Below are positions 8,653 to 22,851 of a DNA stretch of 64,000 bases, one piece after another (the stretch's first letter is position 1; each line of letters opens with the position of its first letter). The stretch is taken from contig WSYJ01000012.1 of assembly GCA_020186115.1 (NCBI GenBank), positions 1 to 64,000 of the forward strand, given 5' to 3'. Below the pieces are notes generated by a model. That model ran no database searches. It saw nothing but the letters and a program-made list of their open reading frames with translations, and was not told the DNA's origin. The DNA is from Histomonas meleagridis. Taxonomy: Eukaryota > Parabasalia > Tritrichomonadida > Dientamoebidae. The position numbers were made by a program, and so were the translations under genes.

Positions 8653-9803
8653 AATTCTATACCACTTTTTTTCATTAAAAATTCGATGAATAACCGCTAA
8701 TTTTAGATCGTTTATTATGCTCAAGATTTCTCGAGATAACATATTTTTTTAATAAAAATTAAAATCAATTGTTTATCTAAATCAAATTTGTGATAATTTC
8801 CCCAGCTTTTTTTCTCTTAATTGAGGTGTATAACATAAAAATTGTAGATTTCCATCTACCATGTTGTTTTATTATATTATCTTGAATTCCTGCTCTTGCA
8901 GCTTCAGTAGTTCCTCCTCTTCTAAGACTATGAGAAGAATAATTTTGAGTATCTTTAATACCAATTAAATCAATAAGAATTCTTAATTTAGAATTAAAAT
9001 TGGATATATTATATTTGAATGGATATGTTTTTGATTTAAAATTGGGAAATTGTTTAAGTCGATTTAATAAAATATAAGGAGAATAAGGTGTATTCGAATT
9101 TTGAATATAACAAATACATCCTTTTCCAAATGGATCATTTTTTGAAATTCGAATATTTAAAGTAATTCCATTTTCTTCGATTAAAATATCATTGTATTTT
9201 AGATTTGTAAGTTCAGAAATTCTTAAAAATCCATAATACATCAAACTTATAGCAGTCATAAATCGTAAATTATAGTATTTTGTCAAATCAATTTGATTGA
9301 CAATTTTGGACATTATTTCTTTGAATACCCCTTTTTTTTTATGAGGGGGATTTAAAGTTAAACTTAATTTAATTGATTTTTAAAATTCTTCAAATTTGGC
9401 ATTTTTGTTAAATCATTTTGATCATTAATACGAAAATAATGTGAAAATGAAGCAACATATAATTTAATTGTATTTAAAGTTGTTTTTTTTTTTTGAATAT
9501 CTTCAATATAACATAAGAATGCCCTCATTTTTTCATCTGTAATAGGAAATGGTTCAGGTGCTCCTTCAATTTCTTTGAATTTTTTTTCATACGTTTTAAT
9601 ATAACTATTGTATGTGTTTAAAAGATTTGGTCTAATTGAATTTCGTTCTTGAACTCTGCTTTCTTCAACAAGTTGTTCAAATAGCATTTAATAAAAATGT
9701 TCTATATGAACTTTTTTATTAATAAATTGAGGTCTTGATAACGAATTTTAAAATTAATGGTTATTTATTGGATTTTTTTCTGTAAAAAAAGTGGTATAGA
9801 ATT
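8653..9803 (-). mobile_element. Tyrosine-recombinase cassette with 20-bp inverted repeats
   Basis: The sequence AATTCTATACCACTTTTTTT at 8,653-8,672 is the exact reverse complement of 9,784-9,803. The two copies bracket a single tyrosine-recombinase gene over 1,151 bp. Crypton elements, the usual eukaryotic tyrosine-recombinase transposons, are not known for inverted ends. Polinton-like viruses can carry tyrosine integrases, so the cassette could be a piece of one. No target duplication was identified. Confidence 0.6.
8777..9687 (-). pseudogene. Tyrosine recombinase/integrase, one frameshift
   Basis: The N-terminal part (ATG 9,687 to 9,364) is a 107-residue SAM-like core-binding domain. The catalytic domain continues in a different frame from about 9,360 through ATG 9,313 to 8,777. 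Visible catalytic features are the first Arg in GFLRISELTNLKYNDI, the HxxR box in SSHSLRRGGTTEAARAG, the His/Trp box in KQHGRWKS, and the Tyr nucleophile in MLYTSIKRK. The total of about 300 residues is normal for the family. A homopolymer near 9,330 and the region 9,355-9,365 contain the frameshift; a sequencing error is possible. The catalytic set is complete, so inactivation is recent if real. Confidence 0.85.
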
Positions 9804-9915: not shown

Positions 9916-11208
9916 TAGGGGAAACTAAAATGTTTTATCTTACATATAATAGAATCGAAATAAAAGATTTTAATTATATTTTTTAGGTTTACTTATGATA
10001 GTAGTTACCTTTGTTTAATATCACCCATTGACATCTTTCAATTTATTTTTCAATAACTTTTGCTAAAGTATCCTTCGAAATTTCACACAAAATTTCAGTT
10101 ATTTTATCGTGCAATTGTTGAAAATCATCGAATTTTTCTACTTCTAGTTGATTTTTTAAAAAACCAAATAAAACGAAATCTGAAGGAGCAAGATCTGGTG
10201 AATATCGTGGCTGTGGAGCTCTTTTAAAACCATTATCAACCAAAAATTTAGTTGAAGCATTAGAGGTATAAGGAGATGCATTATCGAAATGTAAAACATA
10301 TGGGTTTTCATTGGGCTTTTTTCTTTGTGGGTATACAATTTGCTTCAATAGTTTAATTATATTATTAATAAAATACTTTGAGTTATATTTTTCACCATCT
10401 TTCATAATATCAACTATAAAGAATTGATCAATATTCCAAAAGATAGTTACCATATATTTTATCGTGTCAATTTTTGTATCGATAATTTCAGGTAAATTAT
10501 CTCTTGATTGTGACCACATATGCTTGTGATCATATGATAAGAAAAACCATGATTCATCCCCAGTTATGATTCTATGGAAACCTTTTCTCTTACTAACTTT
10601 TGAGATATCAAGAAGCTCAGTTGCTATTCGCACTCTTTCTTCTTTCATTTCACATGTCAGTTCATATGGCACCACTCTTAAATTATAATAATGGAAGCCT
10701 AATTTATTGAGGTGATCATTTACGGTGGATCGTGGTATAGATAAGGCTTCACTTAATGTATATGTCGAATGAAATGGTTCCATTTCGAGTGCAGCCAAAA
10801 TTTTTGAATCAATGAAATCAAGTACTGGTCTTCCTGGACTTTGAATGTTTGTTATTTCAGATCTCCCTAATTTAAATTGATGCACCCAATAATATTTTAT
10901 GGTATTAATATCGAGTGCATCTTGGTGATAAACATCATCTAACTCTTGTTTAATTTGGCTGAGTTTAAAGCCTTTTCTTTTCAGGGAAAATATGACTGCT
11001 CTTTGTTCGACTTCCATAAAAATGAAAAATGTTTAAAAAGAATGACAATATGAAAGTTTATTTTTGACATTATCTTGATATATAGAATATTTCTGATATC
11101 AAAAATTATATCATTATTATTACAGTCTTTTGTATTTTTATATATATAATTTTTATTAAAAAAAAATAAAAGAATCATATTTAGGATAAAACTTTTACGT
11201 CCCCCCTA
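9916..11208 (-). mobile_element. mariner element 2 (TA target duplication)
   Basis: A 1,293-bp element between TA dinucleotides at 9,914-9,915 and 11,209-11,210. The ends form imperfect inverted repeats: left TAGGGGAAACTAAAATGTTT, right (reverse-complemented) TAGGGGGGACGTAAAAGTTT, with further similarity to about 38 bp. The right flank resumes inside the small amphipathic gene of Maverick copy C, so this element also jumped into Maverick DNA. Confidence 0.85.
10043..11017 (-). CDS. mariner transposase (C-terminus cut by an in-frame TAA)
   Basis: A 324-residue transposase from ATG 11,017. The N-terminal helix-turn-helix region carries SPGRPVLDF. The catalytic triad is intact: ITGDESWFF, HFDNASPYT and SPDLAPSDFVLFG, with 34 residues between the second and third aspartates. 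The frame ends at TAA 10,043, but the same frame continues beyond it (IERCQWVILNKGNYYHK, to 9,987) and matches the usual mariner C-terminus, so the protein lacks its last ~18 residues. It is better preserved than element 1 and may have moved more recently. It is likely inactive or weak. Confidence 0.9.
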   Translation of the reverse strand: MEVEQRAVIFSLKRKGFKLSQIKQELDDVYHQDALDINTIKYYWVHQFKLGRSEITNIQSPGRPVLDFIDSKILAALEMEPFHSTYTLSEALSIPRSTVNDHLNKLGFHYYNLRVVPYELTCEMKEERVRIATELLDISKVSKRKGFHRIITGDESWFFLSYDHKHMWSQSRDNLPEIIDTKIDTIKYMVTIFWNIDQFFIVDIMKDGEKYNSKYFINNIIKLLKQIVYPQRKKPNENPYVLHFDNASPYTSNASTKFLVDNGFKRAPQPRYSPDLAPSDFVLFGFLKNQLEVEKFDDFQQLHDKITEILCEISKDTLAKVIEK

Positions 11209-14722: not shown

Positions 14723-17700
14723 TTATTTTGCTTTTTTTGGTAGTGATCTCGGAATATATTTTGCACATTTATCAATTCCGTCCAATTTTTGTGTCAACCG
14801 TATTACAACAGGATGAGACAGCAAAAATGCATCTATTCCAGAGACTTTGAATGAAGTGTTTTTCATTTCGTTGAATTCAACAATCTTTTTTGAAGCTTCA
14901 GTCCATACTGCAGTTGGGGTCGGTCCTTCAAATACTTTCTCTGGGCAGCTTTCCATCCAAATTCTAAATTTGGGTTTTGGTCCTCCATCATCTATAATTT
15001 CCTCAATCCATGTACATTTTTTCTTCTTCTCCAACAAAGAAGGTCTTTTAACCATAACCCTATATCCGTTCGGGTAAACATACCTCTCAGTATGAAACTC
15101 TGGTTTATCATAAACAACAGTACCAAGACTTAAGATGGTTGATGATTCGTTGATTTTCATCGGGAATTTGTATTCAATTTGATCGTCCGACTCTTCGGCT
15201 TCCTTCTCGTTGGCTTCCTTCTTCGTTTTTTCCCTTTCAGAATACTGCTTGAAGGTTTTAAAGAGAACGCCGATTCGCTTTACAATGACTTGCTCTTTAT
15301 GAAGGAGTTGAAGAGATTTCTCATTAATACCATTAAAAAAATCATCTTCCAATAATTCTTCAAGTTCTCCTAATCCTCGCTCACTAAGCTGCTTGAACAA
15401 ATAAAATTCTTGTTCTCCTTTTAGTTGCTCTGGAAGTAATTTCCAATGAGGTGCAATAGAAATTACTTCTAACATTTCTGAATCATCATAAGTATGAAAC
15501 ATTGTATAAAGCTCGTGCACCAATGAACATCGAGCAAGGATGCGTGTAGCTGTATGTCGAGGAATTTCAGAATCAGGATTATCACAATCTTTGATACATT
15601 GTTCAACATATTCTTGGATTTGTTCTAATGTTTTCGTTGTAGATGATTCTGATATTTTTACGAAACATAGCCTTTTTCCATCGCTTGTTTCAGGTACCCC
15701 ATAACTCATTAGATATTTATAAACAGCTTTCTTTTCTTCTTTGTTCCACTCACCTGGTATTTCATTGTCAGCTTGTTTCTTTCTTTTGCCTCGATTTTTC
15801 TTTTTCTTTGTTGATGGAGATTCTATTTTTTCATTAATAAGTTTTTTAATTCCTCCCATTAATCTTAGTGCTCGTTCATTTAGTTTATAATAATAAACGT
15901 CATTATTATAAAATATTTCTGTTAAATTTTGTTCTTTATCTTCGAAAAATTGTTCATAATTTCCTAGGCCATATTTTAACGTTCCAATGAGAAGTAAACG
16001 GTCGAAATTAAACGTCCACCAATCGGTCAAGTGAATTTTGAATAGTTTCATATTTGAAGATTTTATTTCTTCAAATATTTCATCGTCTTCTATTTTTGGT
16101 AAGAATTCTAATTGTTCAATTCTCTTTAAAAAAACAGGAGCATTTTTCTGAAGGTAACCTTGAAATCCTTTATCTTTAATAAAAATATCTTCGATAAATT
16201 TCACATCATTTTCTTCATCGCTTTCTGATTTAGTTAAATTTTTAACATATTCTGTTGCAATTTGATTTTTTTTTGATGCCGGATCATTTATATGAAGTAA
16301 ATATCTAACAATTGCTCGTGAAGCATTTATGATATCGCTTTCGCTTTTATTTATTCCACCATCAGTAATAAACATATTCCATCTATTCCAACCAAATCTA
16401 CATAAACATCGAATAAGTTGATTTCTTTCATGTATTGACCATTTATCGTTAAATTTTATATTTGTTTCATCTTTGAAATGATTTTCTTTCATAATATCAT
16501 CCCAAAAATCATCTCCTGTAAGTTCACTTTCGATTAATAATTTAAAAACAGAATCATTTTCTTTTTTAGTTGAGTTTTGTAGAATTAAATTAACATCAAT
16601 TTCTTCTTTTTCGTCAAAAGATGATAATGCAATACATTTACATAAAAAATCAAGATTTTCAATTTCTTGTTTTGTTGAAGGCGCGAAACTAATTTCATTT
16701 AATTGAGTTTCACAACAATCACCACAATAAAGATGATAAATATGTTTAACATTATTTGTTGACGATTTCTTTAAATATCTCATAAAATATTTTGTACAAC
16801 CATCAACAAATATAACTAATTGAATACCATCAATAAGATTTGCATTTAATTCACAATAAAGTGGATTATATAATAGAATTTGATTGACGTTTTGGTTAAT
16901 TTCAGATGTCCCTTCAGTAATTCGAGTAAAATTTAAACCAGATTTAAAAATAACATCCTCAACTAAGTCAAGAAATATAGAATATTGTGAAATTATTATT
17001 ATGTTTTGATGATATATTGTTAAAATTTCTTTAATAACTTTAAGCTTTGTAGACGACTTAAGTATACCAACAGATTTGTTCTCATGTGATAATATAAATG
17101 GATGTGTACAAACACGTTTCGCCTTTTGACATAAAAAAAATTGATTTTTTACATTTTCAAAAACAATTTTTTGCATGATTTTTCGTTGGTATAAACTAAG
17201 TGGACAATTAATATATAATGTATGAATATCAGTTTGATTGTTTTCTGAAGTCTTGCGTTTGAGAAGTTTAGATTGAATTGACAACTTTATTTCTTCTGAA
17301 ATTTTACTTGGAAGGAGACCGTTTATGTTTTCTGAGTTCGTTAAAGTTGTCAAATGTTGAACATCAAGTAAATTGGTAGGTATCTTACATTGAACCATTT
17401 GTACATTACTTTTGATGCTACTGATAGCCTTGGCAAACTTGGATTGAGGATTTTTTAGACGATTAGTGTCAATAAATGTGGCATGCCAATTAATGTTCTT
17501 TATTTGTTCATTGTCGTGCAAAATGACATCAGGAACAGTAACAAGTATGTTAAACTTAAAATGTTTGCTCGTTTGAAAATCTTTTTTGGTGATTATAACT
17601 CTATTTTCCATTGTCCCAGAATAATTAAGTACAATAGAATTTGAGACATTACGTAAAGTAACATGCCATTTATTAATACATGAGGTAGGCACAATAACTA

Positions 17701-17965
17701 AAAAAGGTCCAACATCATTATAAGTATTGATAACAATATCAAAAAAAGATCCAATTGTTTTTTGGAAATCTATATTATACTCATCAGAAATTTCAGTGTT
17801 TTGGCCTTTAGTAAAATTTTTTAAAAAGAGATTTAAGATTGATAATTCTAAATCTTTTAAATCTTCACCACAAAATGTATAACTGTTGATATAAATAAAT
17901 TGGTACTCTGGTGATATTTCTGTGTTGTCATTTTTTGTTGGAAGTTTAACACTAGCTCTTGACAT
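14723..17965 (-). CDS. CHD-family chromatin remodeller with degenerate ATPase motifs
   Basis: A 1,080-residue intact gene from ATG 17,965. Residues ~60-440 align to a SNF2/CHD ATPase: DFQKT (66-70) stands where GLGKT is expected, GPFLVIVPTSCINKW matches motif Ia, and HATFIDTNRLKNPQSKF (161-177) matches the DEAH box region with DEAH changed to DTNR. The TGTP motif is absent and the arginine-finger segment (HRIGQ) is replaced by KKSSTNN. Around 500-530 and 660-690 are SANT/SLIDE-like blocks (WSIHERNQLIRCLCRFGWNR; WWTFNFDRLLLIGTLKYGLG), followed by a lysine-rich stretch and CHD6-9-like segments (GEWNKEEKKAVYKYLMSYGV). There are no chromodomains. It is presumably a nuclear, nucleosome-binding pseudo-ATPase. 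Confidence 0.85.
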   Translation of the reverse strand: MSRASVKLPTKNDNTEISPEYQFIYINSYTFCGEDLKDLELSILNLFLKNFTKGQNTEISDEYNIDFQKTIGSFFDIVINTYNDVGPFLVIVPTSCINKWHVTLRNVSNSIVLNYSGTMENRVIITKKDFQTSKHFKFNILVTVPDVILHDNEQIKNINWHATFIDTNRLKNPQSKFAKAISSIKSNVQMVQCKIPTNLLDVQHLTTLTNSENINGLLPSKISEEIKLSIQSKLLKRKTSENNQTDIHTLYINCPLSLYQRKIMQKIVFENVKNQFFLCQKAKRVCTHPFILSHENKSVGILKSSTKLKVIKEILTIYHQNIIIISQYSIFLDLVEDVIFKSGLNFTRITEGTSEINQNVNQILLYNPLYCELNANLIDGIQLVIFVDGCTKYFMRYLKKSSTNNVKHIYHLYCGDCCETQLNEISFAPSTKQEIENLDFLCKCIALSSFDEKEEIDVNLILQNSTKKENDSVFKLLIESELTGDDFWDDIMKENHFKDETNIKFNDKWSIHERNQLIRCLCRFGWNRWNMFITDGGINKSESDIINASRAIVRYLLHINDPASKKNQIATEYVKNLTKSESDEENDVKFIEDIFIKDKGFQGYLQKNAPVFLKRIEQLEFLPKIEDDEIFEEIKSSNMKLFKIHLTDWWTFNFDRLLLIGTLKYGLGNYEQFFEDKEQNLTEIFYNNDVYYYKLNERALRLMGGIKKLINEKIESPSTKKKKNRGKRKKQADNEIPGEWNKEEKKAVYKYLMSYGVPETSDGKRLCFVKISESSTTKTLEQIQEYVEQCIKDCDNPDSEIPRHTATRILARCSLVHELYTMFHTYDDSEMLEVISIAPHWKLLPEQLKGEQEFYLFKQLSERGLGELEELLEDDFFNGINEKSLQLLHKEQVIVKRIGVLFKTFKQYSEREKTKKEANEKEAEESDDQIEYKFPMKINESSTILSLGTVVYDKPEFHTERYVYPNGYRVMVKRPSLLEKKKKCTWIEEIIDDGGPKPKFRIWMESCPEKVFEGPTPTAVWTEASKKIVEFNEMKNTSFKVSGIDAFLLSHPVVIRLTQKLDGIDKCAKYIPRSLPKKAK

Positions 17966-17987
17966 TCTTCACTTTGTTTCCATAAGT

Positions 17988-17995
17988 TAACGGTC
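17988..17995 (-). promoter_or_regulatory. M3-like promoter motif of the CHD-like gene
   Basis: The coding-strand 8-mer GACCGTTA lies 23-30 nt before the ATG. It fits the M3 core-promoter pattern described for Trichomonas vaginalis as I recall it. The HEAT gene has a related motif at nearly the same distance. Confidence 0.35.
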
Positions 17996-17999
17996 GTTT

Positions 18000-18610
18000 T
18001 CTTATTGAAAAATTGCTTCAGATAAAATTGTAGATGAAATAGAAATCTCGCTAAAAATTTTCAAGACATTATTAAAAGAGAGGCAAAGAGAGATTCAACA
18101 ATGTTTTAGTAAACTGTTAATATTTTAAAGGATTCCAAAATCGTTATTATTTCTTTAGAAGTTGTTGTTAATATTCTACAAGCTTTTTTTACATAGGCAA
18201 GATTTATATTTCGCATGAATAGCCAAAAGATTCAACCTGAGTTAATCAACATTTTTGACTCTGATCTTCAAAATATATAGAAATATCAAAATTTATATAG
18301 GAACAAAAATATCTCATCATGAAATCAATATTACAATGATAATTGTATCTAGTATATTATAATATATTGGTAACTTTATCTTAAATACATTTGATGTTAC
18401 AGTTAAATTTCATCGAAATGATGTTTTCCATTATCTATATGAAAATCAAATATATACAAAACTAAAGATTTAACTTTGATGCTAAAGAATTGTATAATAT
18501 ATTATAATTATGAACTCTTTTTGTTTTTGTTTTATCAAAATTTGAAATTTTCTATTTCATACTTATATGAACATGCAAAAATAGGGAATTTATTTATTGT
18601 GAAATTTTTT
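18000..18610. other. AT-rich intergenic spacer
   Basis: Lies between the CHD-like promoter and the ankyrin relic. I see no coding run, no RNA gene and no strong repeat. Confidence 0.5.
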
Positions 18611-18614
18611 ATTG

Positions 18615-19022
18615 ATGACTTATTCTTTAGAATCAGGAAATATTGAACTTGTAGAGTATATTTTAAATCAAAAAATAATTGATATTAATATCAATTATGC
18701 TAAAACTATTCAATACTTTTATTTATTGTATATTGTAATAATTTGCAATTTTAAAATAATATTTGGAAATATTTTAAAATATTTAATACAGCACTTACTT
18801 TGGCATCTAGAAATGGTCAAATTACTTCTTGAACAAAAAGGAATTGAATTTTATACGAAAAATAATATATGCTTAAACATTTCCTTATTTTCAAATAATA
18901 TTTGGAAATTATTTAAATTATTTAATACAGCACTTATTTTTGCATCTAGAAATGGTCATATAGAAATAATTAAACTACTTCTTGAACAAAAAGGAATTGA
19001 TATTAATGCTGAAAATTTTTAA
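18615..19022 (+). pseudogene. Ankyrin-repeat (DUF3447-type) relic
   Basis: Short, broken frames carry trichomonad ankyrin units: SLESGNIELVEYILNQKIID, then two or three copies of a TALIFASRNGHIEIIKLLLEQ-type unit separated by a repeated AT-rich spacer (ATTTGGAAATTATTTAAAT type). The repeats are out of step, and part is low-complexity. A similar relic is found at 61,366-61,480. It ends just before the intact ankyrin-RhoGEF gene. Confidence 0.6.
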
Positions 19023-19140
19023 TTTGATTTATTTGATGTTTGTCAAACAGTATTTAACGGGTTCTATCGGCTTATTAACTAGACAAAGCATGTCAATTAT
19101 TAAATGCATTTTTATCGTCTTTCCGAAAAATCGACAAGCA

Positions 19141-22100
19141 ATGAGTTTTTCCTTTGGAGGCGCGAGCATATCAACACTCTTCGATATATGTATGAACTCA
19201 GACGAAAAGCATCTCCAACAACAAATTGAAAGTATTTATTCAACAGCTTATGGGCTTGATTTTTTAGTTGATGATCAAAAGCAAAATCTTCTTCATATTT
19301 TAGCAGCATCACCAAATTTTACCAAATGGAAAACTCTGTTAAATGGATTTGTTTATTTAAATGCAGTTGATTCACATTTGCAAACACCTTTATTCATTTC
19401 AACAAAAGCAAAAAATATTCAAGCAATTCATTACCTAATAGCAAATGGAGCTTCTGCTATCATAGAAAATGAAAAAAGAATTAATCCAATTAAACTTGCT
19501 TGTCAAACAAATTATTCTATTGGTTTAAGAGAACTCATCAAACCTTATTCTTCTATTCACTATATCTCCACCAACTTTGTTGAAATTGGTAAAATATGTC
19601 TTACAAATAATTCTTATGAAGCATTCAAAATCATTTTAAGAGCCACTGAAAATAACTATATCAACTCATATGACGGAGAAGGCTTTGGTCTAATACATTA
19701 CATTGTACAAGCAGATAATTTCCAAATGTTAAAAATATTTATACCTTCAAATAATAATTATAAAGTCGATATAAATCTTAAATCAAAAAATCTAAAAGTT
19801 GAAAAGACGCCAATAGAGATGGCAGTTTCCACAGAAATATGTGGGTATTTATATGGTCTTGGTGCCTCAATTCATAAAAGATCTCAAACTAGTGTTATTT
19901 CAGACATTATATCCAAATCCTCTCAATGGGGCACAACTGGTAAATCGTACACTTTATGTGAATTTCACAAAGCAGCCATTGAAGGAAATGTCTTATTTCT
20001 CAAAACTTACAACAAAAAGGTTATTGATGTCGTCGATGTTCATAGGATGACTCCTCTTTTATATGCAATCTCTTGTAAGCATATCCAATTTATCACATCC
20101 CTTCTTGAAAAAGGAGCATCACCCAACTTTTTCACTGGAAAAACCACCGCATTTCACTTTGCCGCACTCAAAGGAGACGTTAACGCCTTTTCTCAATTAT
20201 GTACTAACGGTCAACCGAATTTCGAAACTTTAGATTCCAAAGGTAGAACAATCATTGCATGTGCTGTAGCTTCCAAAAATCTTGATATGCTTAAATATGT
20301 TATGGCCCTTAATCCAAAACAAATTTGTGAAGCAACTATTATTAGTCGAAAATTACTTACATATGATAACCATCTTTCTTCTCTTATGATGGAATGTTTA
20401 CTTTCAAAATGTTTATATCCATTAGGTTTAATGATTAGAGGCCATAAGACTCTTCTTCAAGTCTCGATTGAAGAGAACAAAAGTGAATTAGCAATGGTCA
20501 TTCTTACAAAAATGAAATCCTACAAAATCGCAGAGTTCGAACCAAACCCAGAAAGGTGTCTTATTTCAGCTGTTTTAAAAGAAGAAGATGAAGTTGTAAA
20601 AAGTCTAATTGAGTATGGTGTCAATCCATCCATCCAAGAGTATGGCCGTCCTCTACTCCATCTTACAGTTTTCCACAAAAGCGATAAGTCACGAAAAGCC
20701 ATATTAGATAAATATCCAGATTTAATTAATTCAGTTGATCAATTTGGGAATAGTATTCTTCATTTTGCTGCCTTAACGAACTCGACCAATGGTATTAAAT
20801 CGTGTATTACCGACTTAAAATTTCCGATTAATTTTGTCAATAATGATGGCGAAACACCATTAATGCAACTTGTCAAACGGAAGTCTGATGACTTTTGTAC
20901 CAACTTTGAATATTTTATGCAGAACAAGGCACAACTTTTTGTGCAAAATTGCCGAAAACAAAACATCATTCATATCTGTACAGAATATAATAATGTTCAA
21001 TCATTAACAGAACTTATAAGTTCACGCGATAAAAAGCCCATTTTACCACTTGATCAAATACGTTTTTTATTATCACAGAAAGACATTGATGATCAAACAC
21101 CATTAGAATATGCTTCTAAATTAACAGACACAAAATGTTCATCAATTATCTCTGAATATCAACAATTGCCGATATTTAATTCACCGATTACCATTAAAAC
21201 ATTACAACAACATCAATCTAATGGATATTCACCTAATGTATATAATAAAGCAGGTGTATGTTTATTAGTTTGTGTAATATATCAAAAATATGATAACCCT
21301 AATAAAGTTGTAGAATTAGTCCGTAAATTAATGGAAATGGGCGCAGATCCATCATTAAAGAATTCGGATGGATTATCGATAATTCATCATGTTATAACAT
21401 CACATAACTTAGAGATAATAAAAATATTAGTTGAAAATGGTGCAAATTTCATTGTGGAACCAGTTATATCATCATTTTCACGAGAAATTGGTTCTGATGA
21501 AATATCTGAATATATAAAAGCGCCTGAGAAAAGAGCGAGTGCAATTAATGAATTATTAACTACGCAAGAAAACGCAGTACCAATTCTTGGATGCATATGT
21601 AAAATCTCCGAAAAGTTTGGCACTAATCCATATATCCGTACGTATATGGAAGAAGTCAAACAAATGTATCGATTGTTAACATTATTTATACAAAGGTTTG
21701 AGAAGATATTCCAAACATTAAAACCATCGACAGAATTAGGCTCATTTTTATTATATTTTGCAGATGCTTTTTTACCTTTCTTACATATTGCTACATCATA
21801 TGATAAATCTATTAATATCATTCGAGCAACACCATTACTATCAGAATTATTAAATTTGCCAAGTGGTTATTCGAAGTTAACATTTGATGACGCATTAATA
21901 GTTCCAACACAACAATTTACTTATTATCCTGAGTTAATAAAAGCGATAATTAAAGCGACTCCAGAAAATCATTCCGATTTAATTAACTTACGTAAAGCTC
22001 ATGCGAAGTTTGCATATATTGTACGAATAATTAATGAGAAGAAACTTATAGTCGAATCACAAAAAGAACTTCAAAGTATCAAATTCTTTACGACCATTAA

Positions 22101-22851
22101 AAATGAAATAATTCCATTTAATATCGAAGATATATTATTAACACATGGACAATTTGAACTAAAAAATTATACAAAACCTAAAAAGAATTTTAATAACATT
22201 TTGTTTGAATCTGATACATGGAGAATTAAAACGATTGAACAAAATGATGGTAATTTTACTGTTTCACATTTCGAATTCTTTGGTCGAAGTATGGATAGTT
22301 TCTTAAATAAGGTGAAAATTGAAATATTTTTATTTAAGAATAATATTATAATGGGCGTCCAAAAAACTGTTGATAAATTTAAGATGAAATTTTCATGTAA
22401 AACTTCAAATATAATTTGGGACTTCGGTAAAGAATACGCACCAGATTCAGTTATGTTATATGCACCTTTTGGTTCGTTGTTATTAAAAATTATTGTTCCA
22501 AAAGGAAGTTCAACAAACTTCGAAAGAAATAAATGGAGAAGTAACATAGAGAAGTTATTTAACGAAGGTGATTCATCAGAAGATAAAGTCGTGAATGGAT
22601 TCGAACAATGTTACGTATCTTGGGTAAGCGCTCAATGTAAATGCGTGTTCTCACATACGTTTTTGGTCAATTGTAAATCGCAAAATGAAGCAAAAGAGAA
22701 AATATTCAATTTGCTGAAGCAAAAAGATGTAGAAATATTACATAAACAAAACCCAATGGGTGAATTGGTACCGTTGATTTGCTTCGATTTCCAAACAATT
22801 AGAAGTAATGAAAGAGAAGAAAGAGATATCATAGCCGATATGATAAATTAA
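19141..22851 (+). CDS. Ankyrin-RhoGEF(DH)-PH protein 1
   Basis: A 1,236-residue intact gene. The frame is open further upstream, but the first sensible ATG is 19,141 (MSFSFGGASISTLF). Residues ~45-780 hold many ankyrin repeats (TPLLYAISCKHIQFITSLLE; GNSILHFAALTNSTNGIKSC). From ~800 the sequence becomes a Dbl-homology domain: ELLTTQENAVPILGCI fits the first conserved block, and DDALIVPTQQFTYYPELIKA followed by TPENHSDL and INEKK fits the third block. Residues ~980-1,236 are likely PH plus a C-terminal extension. The probable role is a Rho-family GTPase exchange factor at membrane or cytoskeleton. It is a paralogue in architecture of the gene at 43,139. Confidence 0.8.
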   Translation: MSFSFGGASISTLFDICMNSDEKHLQQQIESIYSTAYGLDFLVDDQKQNLLHILAASPNFTKWKTLLNGFVYLNAVDSHLQTPLFISTKAKNIQAIHYLIANGASAIIENEKRINPIKLACQTNYSIGLRELIKPYSSIHYISTNFVEIGKICLTNNSYEAFKIILRATENNYINSYDGEGFGLIHYIVQADNFQMLKIFIPSNNNYKVDINLKSKNLKVEKTPIEMAVSTEICGYLYGLGASIHKRSQTSVISDIISKSSQWGTTGKSYTLCEFHKAAIEGNVLFLKTYNKKVIDVVDVHRMTPLLYAISCKHIQFITSLLEKGASPNFFTGKTTAFHFAALKGDVNAFSQLCTNGQPNFETLDSKGRTIIACAVASKNLDMLKYVMALNPKQICEATIISRKLLTYDNHLSSLMMECLLSKCLYPLGLMIRGHKTLLQVSIEENKSELAMVILTKMKSYKIAEFEPNPERCLISAVLKEEDEVVKSLIEYGVNPSIQEYGRPLLHLTVFHKSDKSRKAILDKYPDLINSVDQFGNSILHFAALTNSTNGIKSCITDLKFPINFVNNDGETPLMQLVKRKSDDFCTNFEYFMQNKAQLFVQNCRKQNIIHICTEYNNVQSLTELISSRDKKPILPLDQIRFLLSQKDIDDQTPLEYASKLTDTKCSSIISEYQQLPIFNSPITIKTLQQHQSNGYSPNVYNKAGVCLLVCVIYQKYDNPNKVVELVRKLMEMGADPSLKNSDGLSIIHHVITSHNLEIIKILVENGANFIVEPVISSFSREIGSDEISEYIKAPEKRASAINELLTTQENAVPILGCICKISEKFGTNPYIRTYMEEVKQMYRLLTLFIQRFEKIFQTLKPSTELGSFLLYFADAFLPFLHIATSYDKSINIIRATPLLSELLNLPSGYSKLTFDDALIVPTQQFTYYPELIKAIIKATPENHSDLINLRKAHAKFAYIVRIINEKKLIVESQKELQSIKFFTTIKNEIIPFNIEDILLTHGQFELKNYTKPKKNFNNILFESDTWRIKTIEQNDGNFTVSHFEFFGRSMDSFLNKVKIEIFLFKNNIIMGVQKTVDKFKMKFSCKTSNIIWDFGKEYAPDSVMLYAPFGSLLLKIIVPKGSSTNFERNKWRSNIEKLFNEGDSSEDKVVNGFEQCYVSWVSAQCKCVFSHTFLVNCKSQNEAKEKIFNLLKQKDVEILHKQNPMGELVPLICFDFQTIRSNEREERDIIADMIN

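Follow-up and report, generated by a model that had tools for sequence, protein, structure and literature searches.

Whether a chromatin remodeller can lose its motor and still be kept by selection is the question raised by a gene of Histomonas meleagridis. The gene occupies positions 14723-17965 on the reverse strand of the first 64,000 nucleotides of contig WSYJ01000012.1; this whole stretch is called the window here, and frame and product are called the window gene and the window protein. An earlier note, made from the letters of the DNA, had described a CHD-type remodeller devoid of ATPase signatures and had proposed selection for a non-catalytic nucleosome-binding scaffold, perhaps a partner of an active CHD paralogue. 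Selection for a non-catalytic protein is borne out, since the frame has been preserved despite the loss of the motifs and the dead state is common to three paralogues and to two related metagenome proteins (P0075, P0076); nucleosome binding, scaffolding and partnership are putative. Judged by its sequence, the window protein cannot use the canonical ATPase mechanism, yet selection has kept it; it is probably a non-catalytic chromatin adaptor, which would have arisen from a CHD1-type remodeller fused to an FYR module.

To assess the loss of the motifs, the window protein was aligned with the copies that are intact in this genome. At the P-loop, DEMGLGKT is replaced by DEYNIDFQ (residues 61-68), so that neither glycine is left and lysine and threonine are exchanged as well; the earlier note was right about the loss, but its reading DFQKT is the same stretch taken two residues further on. 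The DExH box VDEAHRLKN has become IDTN-RLKN, which confirms the reported change from DEAH to DTNR, VQCKIP-T stands in for LLTGTPLQN at motif III, and the segment of motifs V and VI that carries the arginine finger (QARCHRIGQ) is replaced. A search of the whole window protein with relaxed patterns (P-loop, DExH/D, TGTP, arginine finger) found no match, and the absence of the last two, also claimed before, therefore holds. The glutamine of the YQ pair preceding lobe 1, which we take to be the SNF2 Q-motif, is a glutamate (E40). Five active relatives have 68 invariant residues in lobe 1, 76 in lobe 2 and 38 in the linker; the window protein retains 21, 19 and 10 of them, respectively.

Some replacements recur in a clade of six motor-dead proteins, which comprises the window protein, its paralogues C57_678k, C80 and C112_1027k, and P0075 and P0076. 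E40 and P255 are present in all six and absent from the five active relatives; V310, Y366, N367, P368, G389 and C417 are likewise clade-specific, each in five of the six. In lobe 2, the window protein, C112_1027k and P0075 show LYNP ... VIF(D)G ... C.DCCE, which has taken the place of the helicase motifs. At the place of the P-loop the five other members read DNFSFDVK, DYLDFPCL, DAMNFQSV, DTLNYSPV and DEFTDGTK. It is thus very improbable that the window protein is still an ATPase with an unconventional site: a K-T pair (residues 69-70) does stand two residues away from where the P-loop has its lysine and threonine, and the predicted fold is kept, but the loop is without glycine, DExH box and arginine finger are missing, and the K-T pair is not common to the other five members.

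The frame runs undivided from ATG to stop over 1080 codons, as stated earlier, within an open frame of 1081 codons with stops on both sides. Stops number 63 and 132 in the two other sense frames and 83, 49 and 91 in the antisense ones, and the GC content per codon position is 0.40/0.28/0.20; both features form the pattern of a coding gene. When the coding sequence was subjected to scripted drift free of selection, none of 50 runs had fewer than 12 stops at 0.1 substitutions per site; since neutral drift soon breaks the frame, its length is not due to chance. A frame of four codons (ATG to TGA, 17969-17983, reverse strand) lies upstream in the same reading frame and stops 3 bases short of the ATG of the window gene.

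The assignment to the CHD/SNF2 proteins stands. Yeast Chd1 (6ftx) was the best sequence match among solved structures, with an expectation value (E) of 6e-21, Pfam SNF2-rel_dom matched residues 75-191 (E 3e-8), and a two-lobe SNF2 ATPase fold is predicted; Helicase_C gave no Pfam match in matches listed up to E 1, and NCBIfam profiles found nothing on the window protein. The SANT/SLIDE-like region had been described as the retained C-terminus, but it is followed by FYRN and FYRC. This region is matched by the Chd1 DNA-binding domain (2xb0/3ted, E 3.6e-4) and, at residues 649-687, by HTH_CHD1_Hrp3 (25.2 bits, slightly below the cut-off of 27 bits); in the second helical region, a Myb-like match at residues 738-786 was weak and below cut-off. 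With 58.3 bits for FYRN (cut-off 24) and 63.9 bits for FYRC (cut-off 21), the protein belongs to the FYR-domain proteins, and the predicted fold of this module matches 2wzo. A first fold model, with a predicted local distance difference test (pLDDT) score of 68 and a predicted template modelling (pTM) score of 0.45, was replaced by a model from 26 alignment rows (pLDDT 78, pTM 0.50); the relative placement of the domains is unsure in both.

Chromodomains are missing, in accordance with the earlier note: no Chromo match was listed by Pfam up to E 1, and comparison of the upstream stretch 17900-19000 with five chromodomain-bearing N-termini yielded only a 10-residue match (E 4.3). This also bears on a gene-model artefact, in which upstream exons with chromodomains and real motor motifs would have been missed. 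About 5% of H. meleagridis genes contain an intron, according to PMC8529796, but the lost motifs fall within the continuous frame at aligned positions and the upstream stretch holds no chromodomain remnant; hence this explanation deserves hardly any credence.

The window gene is not alone in its state. Nineteen CHD/SNF2 genes of H. meleagridis were compared for strict P-loop, DExH, TGTP and arginine-finger motifs; all four occur in nine genes, and none in the other ten, which include the window gene. With the window protein as query the genome yielded 15 matches, and with Pfam SNF2 it yielded 20, one of these below cut-off. C62_167k, C99_1069k, C116_513k and C108_73k (P-loop present), looked at roughly, are outside the 19, as are the short match C110:13848-13973 and the unclassified C120_448k, with no P-loop seen in its three frames of at least 200 amino acids. 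FYRC was found in seven of the ten dead copies (the window gene, C57_678k, C112_1027k, C80, C57_232k, C99_335k and C62_110k), and the remaining two FYRC matches are in the active genes C78 and C91. In the list of loci, the motor-dead CHD/SNF2-like ones besides the window gene are L010, L011, L012, L017, L018, L021, L022, L023 and L024, some with FYR. Active CHD proteins with FYR-like C-termini are encoded at L014, L015 (by alignment only) and L020; FYRN is above cut-off in L014 and L020, FYRC above it in L020 and slightly below in L014.

The metagenome proteins P0075 and P0076 match C112_1027k best (41.0% and 35.6%), share its architecture and are without every motif, and P0002, with all motifs kept, matches the active C78 protein at 64%. 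The main tree was calculated with a mixture model from 551 columns between SANT and FYR, leaving out the ATPase, and was rooted at the midpoint. It unites the six dead proteins with a support of 92/95, below the mark of the tool for firm support, as sister to C78 and P0002 (97/95); grouping of the window protein with this active pair was rejected (approximately unbiased test, p-AU 0.017). Trees from ATPase columns hold the six rows together at 100, but the tree that leaves out the ATPase is preferred, because fast-evolving rows may attract each other in these columns. The window protein thus has the features by which a motor-dead CHD-FYR clade of parabasalids may be proposed, i.e., an FYR ending, a dead ATPase and grouping, apart from the active C78 pair, with C57_678k, C112_1027k, P0075 and P0076; in the main tree its intact relatives are found only outside this clade. 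Frames are intact in all six members. Chromo is above the Pfam cut-off in four of the five others and below it in C112_1027k (20.3 vs 25.1 bits), i.e., chromodomain sequence is kept in all except the window protein, and its loss would therefore be particular to this copy.

The grouping of dead paralogues and metagenome proteins on non-ATPase columns makes the motor loss look old, and it was likely a single loss within the clade. Should P0075 and P0076 belong to other species, which their divergence suggests, the lineage of the window protein would have split from theirs before the species diverged. Outside the FYR clade, the sequences suggest separate losses, since two dead copies are each closest to an intact gene: C112_1066k to C74_332k (43.9% over 1297 aligned columns) and C63_192k to C62_126k (29.8% over 1185). 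A whole-length protein search for an orthologue of the window gene returned one match, the bromodomain SNF2 protein P0001 (20% identity over 45%), a protein search with the FYR part of L011 returned P0074, P0075 and P0076 only, with no orthologue of the window gene, and a collection of bacterial and archaeal contigs gave 26 pattern matches and no relative; as such searches need shared exact words, these absences are weak evidence.

Constraint differs between regions. Between the active proteins C78 and P0002 the ATPase ranks with the most conserved parts (73-79%; FYR 74%). In the dead proteins lobe 1 is the least conserved of eight regions (C112_1027k/P0075 27%, C112_1027k/P0076 25%, P0075/P0076 28%), and among these three the linker reaches 26-43%, lobe 2 and SANT/SLIDE 34-43% each, and FYR 58-69%, the highest value. 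A milder pattern of this kind is seen between intact C74_332k and dead C112_1066k (lobe 1 42%, lobe 2 50%, flanks 58% and 53%); the two intact copies C74_332k and C62_126k have 50-60% in the lobes and 24-30% in the flanks, and the pair C62_126k/C63_192k shows 31-37% throughout, with no lobe-specific drop. The ratio of non-synonymous to synonymous substitution rates (dN/dS, Nei-Gojobori) for the whole window gene, determined from paralogue pairs, was 0.52 against C57_678k and 0.48 against C112_1027k; these values are rough and regional ones noisy, because synonymous sites approach saturation (the difference at fourfold sites is 0.55, against an expected 0.66). In four pairs, FYR had 0.21-0.44 and SANT plus the helical region 0.25-0.65. 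By these measures the window gene is constrained as a whole, the FYR module most and the dead motor least.

A decaying gene, i.e., a young pseudogene that has met no stop yet, is accordingly very unlikely. The long terminal branch leading to the window protein, with 1.2 changes per column, the lost chromodomains and the fast-evolving ATPase region would agree with it, but there is no stop in 1080 codons, where at least 12 would be expected after 0.1 neutral substitutions per site, and five relatives have intact frames in the same dead state. Decay was to be indicated by a dN/dS near 1; the rough whole-gene ratios lie below this value, as does FYR.

The putative adaptor would bind nucleosomal or linker DNA by its SANT/SLIDE-like helices, and its two dead lobes may act on the nucleosome as placeholder or structural platform, in a manner independent of ATP. 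The FYR module could dock a partner, perhaps a complex shared with the active CHD-FYR protein (C78, L009). Clade neighbours could, in addition, read histone tails through chromodomains; the window protein, having lost these, would have to rely on contacts with DNA or partners.

Several observations weigh against this picture. Regional dN/dS in the four pairs, noisy because of the near-saturated synonymous sites, is 0.41-0.89 in the lobes and 0.73-1.57 in the linker, which fits relaxed constraint on a dead motor; as constraint on the ATPase part is weaker than on FYR, the term "scaffold" should be tempered for it. The lobes in the fold models partly reflect relatives, because the input alignments contain active CHD proteins. 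The SANT/SLIDE-like region carries a net charge of -1 (+3 and -1 in active relatives), which lends no support to DNA binding. Under the simpler model LG+G4+F, the same non-ATPase columns unite the six dead rows at 50, and five of them without C80 at 99; in a tree of FYR only, likewise under a simpler model, the six reach 43. The group of six is hence not firmly supported, mostly because of C80. A possible, though somewhat doubtful, alternative is that function resides only in FYR and perhaps in the SANT/SLIDE helices, the dead ATPase being a tolerated remnant, a passive spacer which could be deleted, as in plant MOM1. The low conservation of lobe 1 next to that of FYR, compared with the active-pair ATPase, and the high dN/dS of linker and lobes would suit it, as would, by analogy, the silencing by MOM1 without SNF2 motifs (PMC2507757). 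Conversely, lobe 2 of the dead copies equals SANT/SLIDE in conservation, the length of the ATPase region is kept, and clade-specific residues are fixed in it, all of which speaks against this alternative.

Pseudoenzymes are well known among kinases and rare among chromatin remodellers. The statement that pseudo-ATPase remodellers are not well described was fair, but MOM1 is a clear precedent: it is reported as a CHD3-derived chromatin regulator with motor motifs lost or replaced (PMC2507757, PMC3276543), its SNF2 part is dispensable for silencing in Arabidopsis, and the motif replacements are common to several species (PMC2507757). Hibiscus MOM1 (P0036) has none of the strict motif patterns; like the window protein it possesses a CHD-derived SNF2 region without working motifs, and shared replacements in the dead motor are a further likeness to the window clade. 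Unlike the window protein, it carries the Pfam MOM1 domain PF25029 (CMM2), the motif through which MOM1 acts, and the CHD3 origin of MOM1 differs from the CHD1-like CHD-FYR origin proposed here; moreover, the window protein ends in FYR and several dead copies occur in one H. meleagridis genome. Yeast Chd1, the top match by sequence and predicted fold, agrees with the window protein in the sequence of lobes and SANT/SLIDE-like region along the chain, but CHD1 remodellers differ by catalytic motifs and chromodomains and by the lack of an FYR module. The active C78 (L009) and P0002 proteins share the order ATPase, SANT/SLIDE, helical region, FYR and are sister in the tree, but have all four motor motifs and chromodomains. 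The pseudohelicases Utp25 (PMC9539457) and Deinococcus PriA (PMC4504706), reported as helicase folds without a working motor, are of the DEAD-box and PriA families and serve ribosome assembly and replication restart, not chromatin. No paper on motor-dead parabasalid CHD proteins or CHD-FYR fusions was found in the openly licensed literature, most subscription journals being outside this scope; FYR fusion, multiplicity and lineage look new, and the general idea is already known because of MOM1.

Table 1. Features of the window gene and their positions in the window
Feature	Residues	Positions	Strand	Basis
Whole gene, motor-dead CHD-FYR protein	1080 aa	14723..17965	-	open frame; CHD1 match E 6e-21
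Degenerate ATPase lobe 1	33-209	17339..17869	-	alignment bounds, residue count, predicted fold
P-loop place, DEYNIDFQ vs DEMGLGKT	61-68	17762..17785	-	alignment; no relaxed P-loop anywhere
DExH-box place, IDTNRLKN vs VDEAHRLKN	165-172	17450..17473	-	alignment
Inter-lobe linker, VCTHPF stretch retained	210-299	17069..17338	-	alignment
Degenerate ATPase lobe 2; motif V/VI segment replaced by clade-specific LYNP ... VIF.DG ... C.DCCE	302-424	16694..17062	-	alignment
SANT/SLIDE-like helical region	508-709	15839..16444	-	alignment bounds; HTH_CHD1_Hrp3 and 2xb0/3ted matches
Second helical region, between SANT/SLIDE and FYR	737-905	15251..15757	-	alignment to relatives
FYRN	933-992	14990..15169	-	Pfam PF05964, E 5.8e-16
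FYRC	997-1071	14753..14977	-	Pfam, E 1.6e-17

Elsewhere in the window, an open frame at 8777-9313 (reverse strand) matched Phage_integrase, a tyrosine recombinase (32.4 bits, cut-off 27.1), and another at 10043-11017 (reverse strand) had weak matches to mariner/Tc-type transposases, all below cut-offs. The product of the adjoining gene at 18982-22851 (forward strand) is rich in ankyrin repeats and has a RhoGEF domain (46.5 bits, cut-off 27.6).

As a wider, tentative proposal, parabasalids may run a motor-dead CHD set beside the active one, made up of an old CHD-FYR clade with one motor loss before speciation and of separate losses in other CHD lineages. Dead Chd1 bodies could then be nucleosome clamps free of ATP, with FYR docking shared partners, and chromatin could be marked or shielded by competition or pairing with active remodellers. 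Expanded chromatin-reader genes are reported for Trichomonas vaginalis (PMC8638923). Ten motor-dead genes among 19 of the CHD/SNF2 type, some conserved in other organisms, would provide a natural series for the study of motorless remodeller bodies, and such a set bears on gene regulation in parabasalids.
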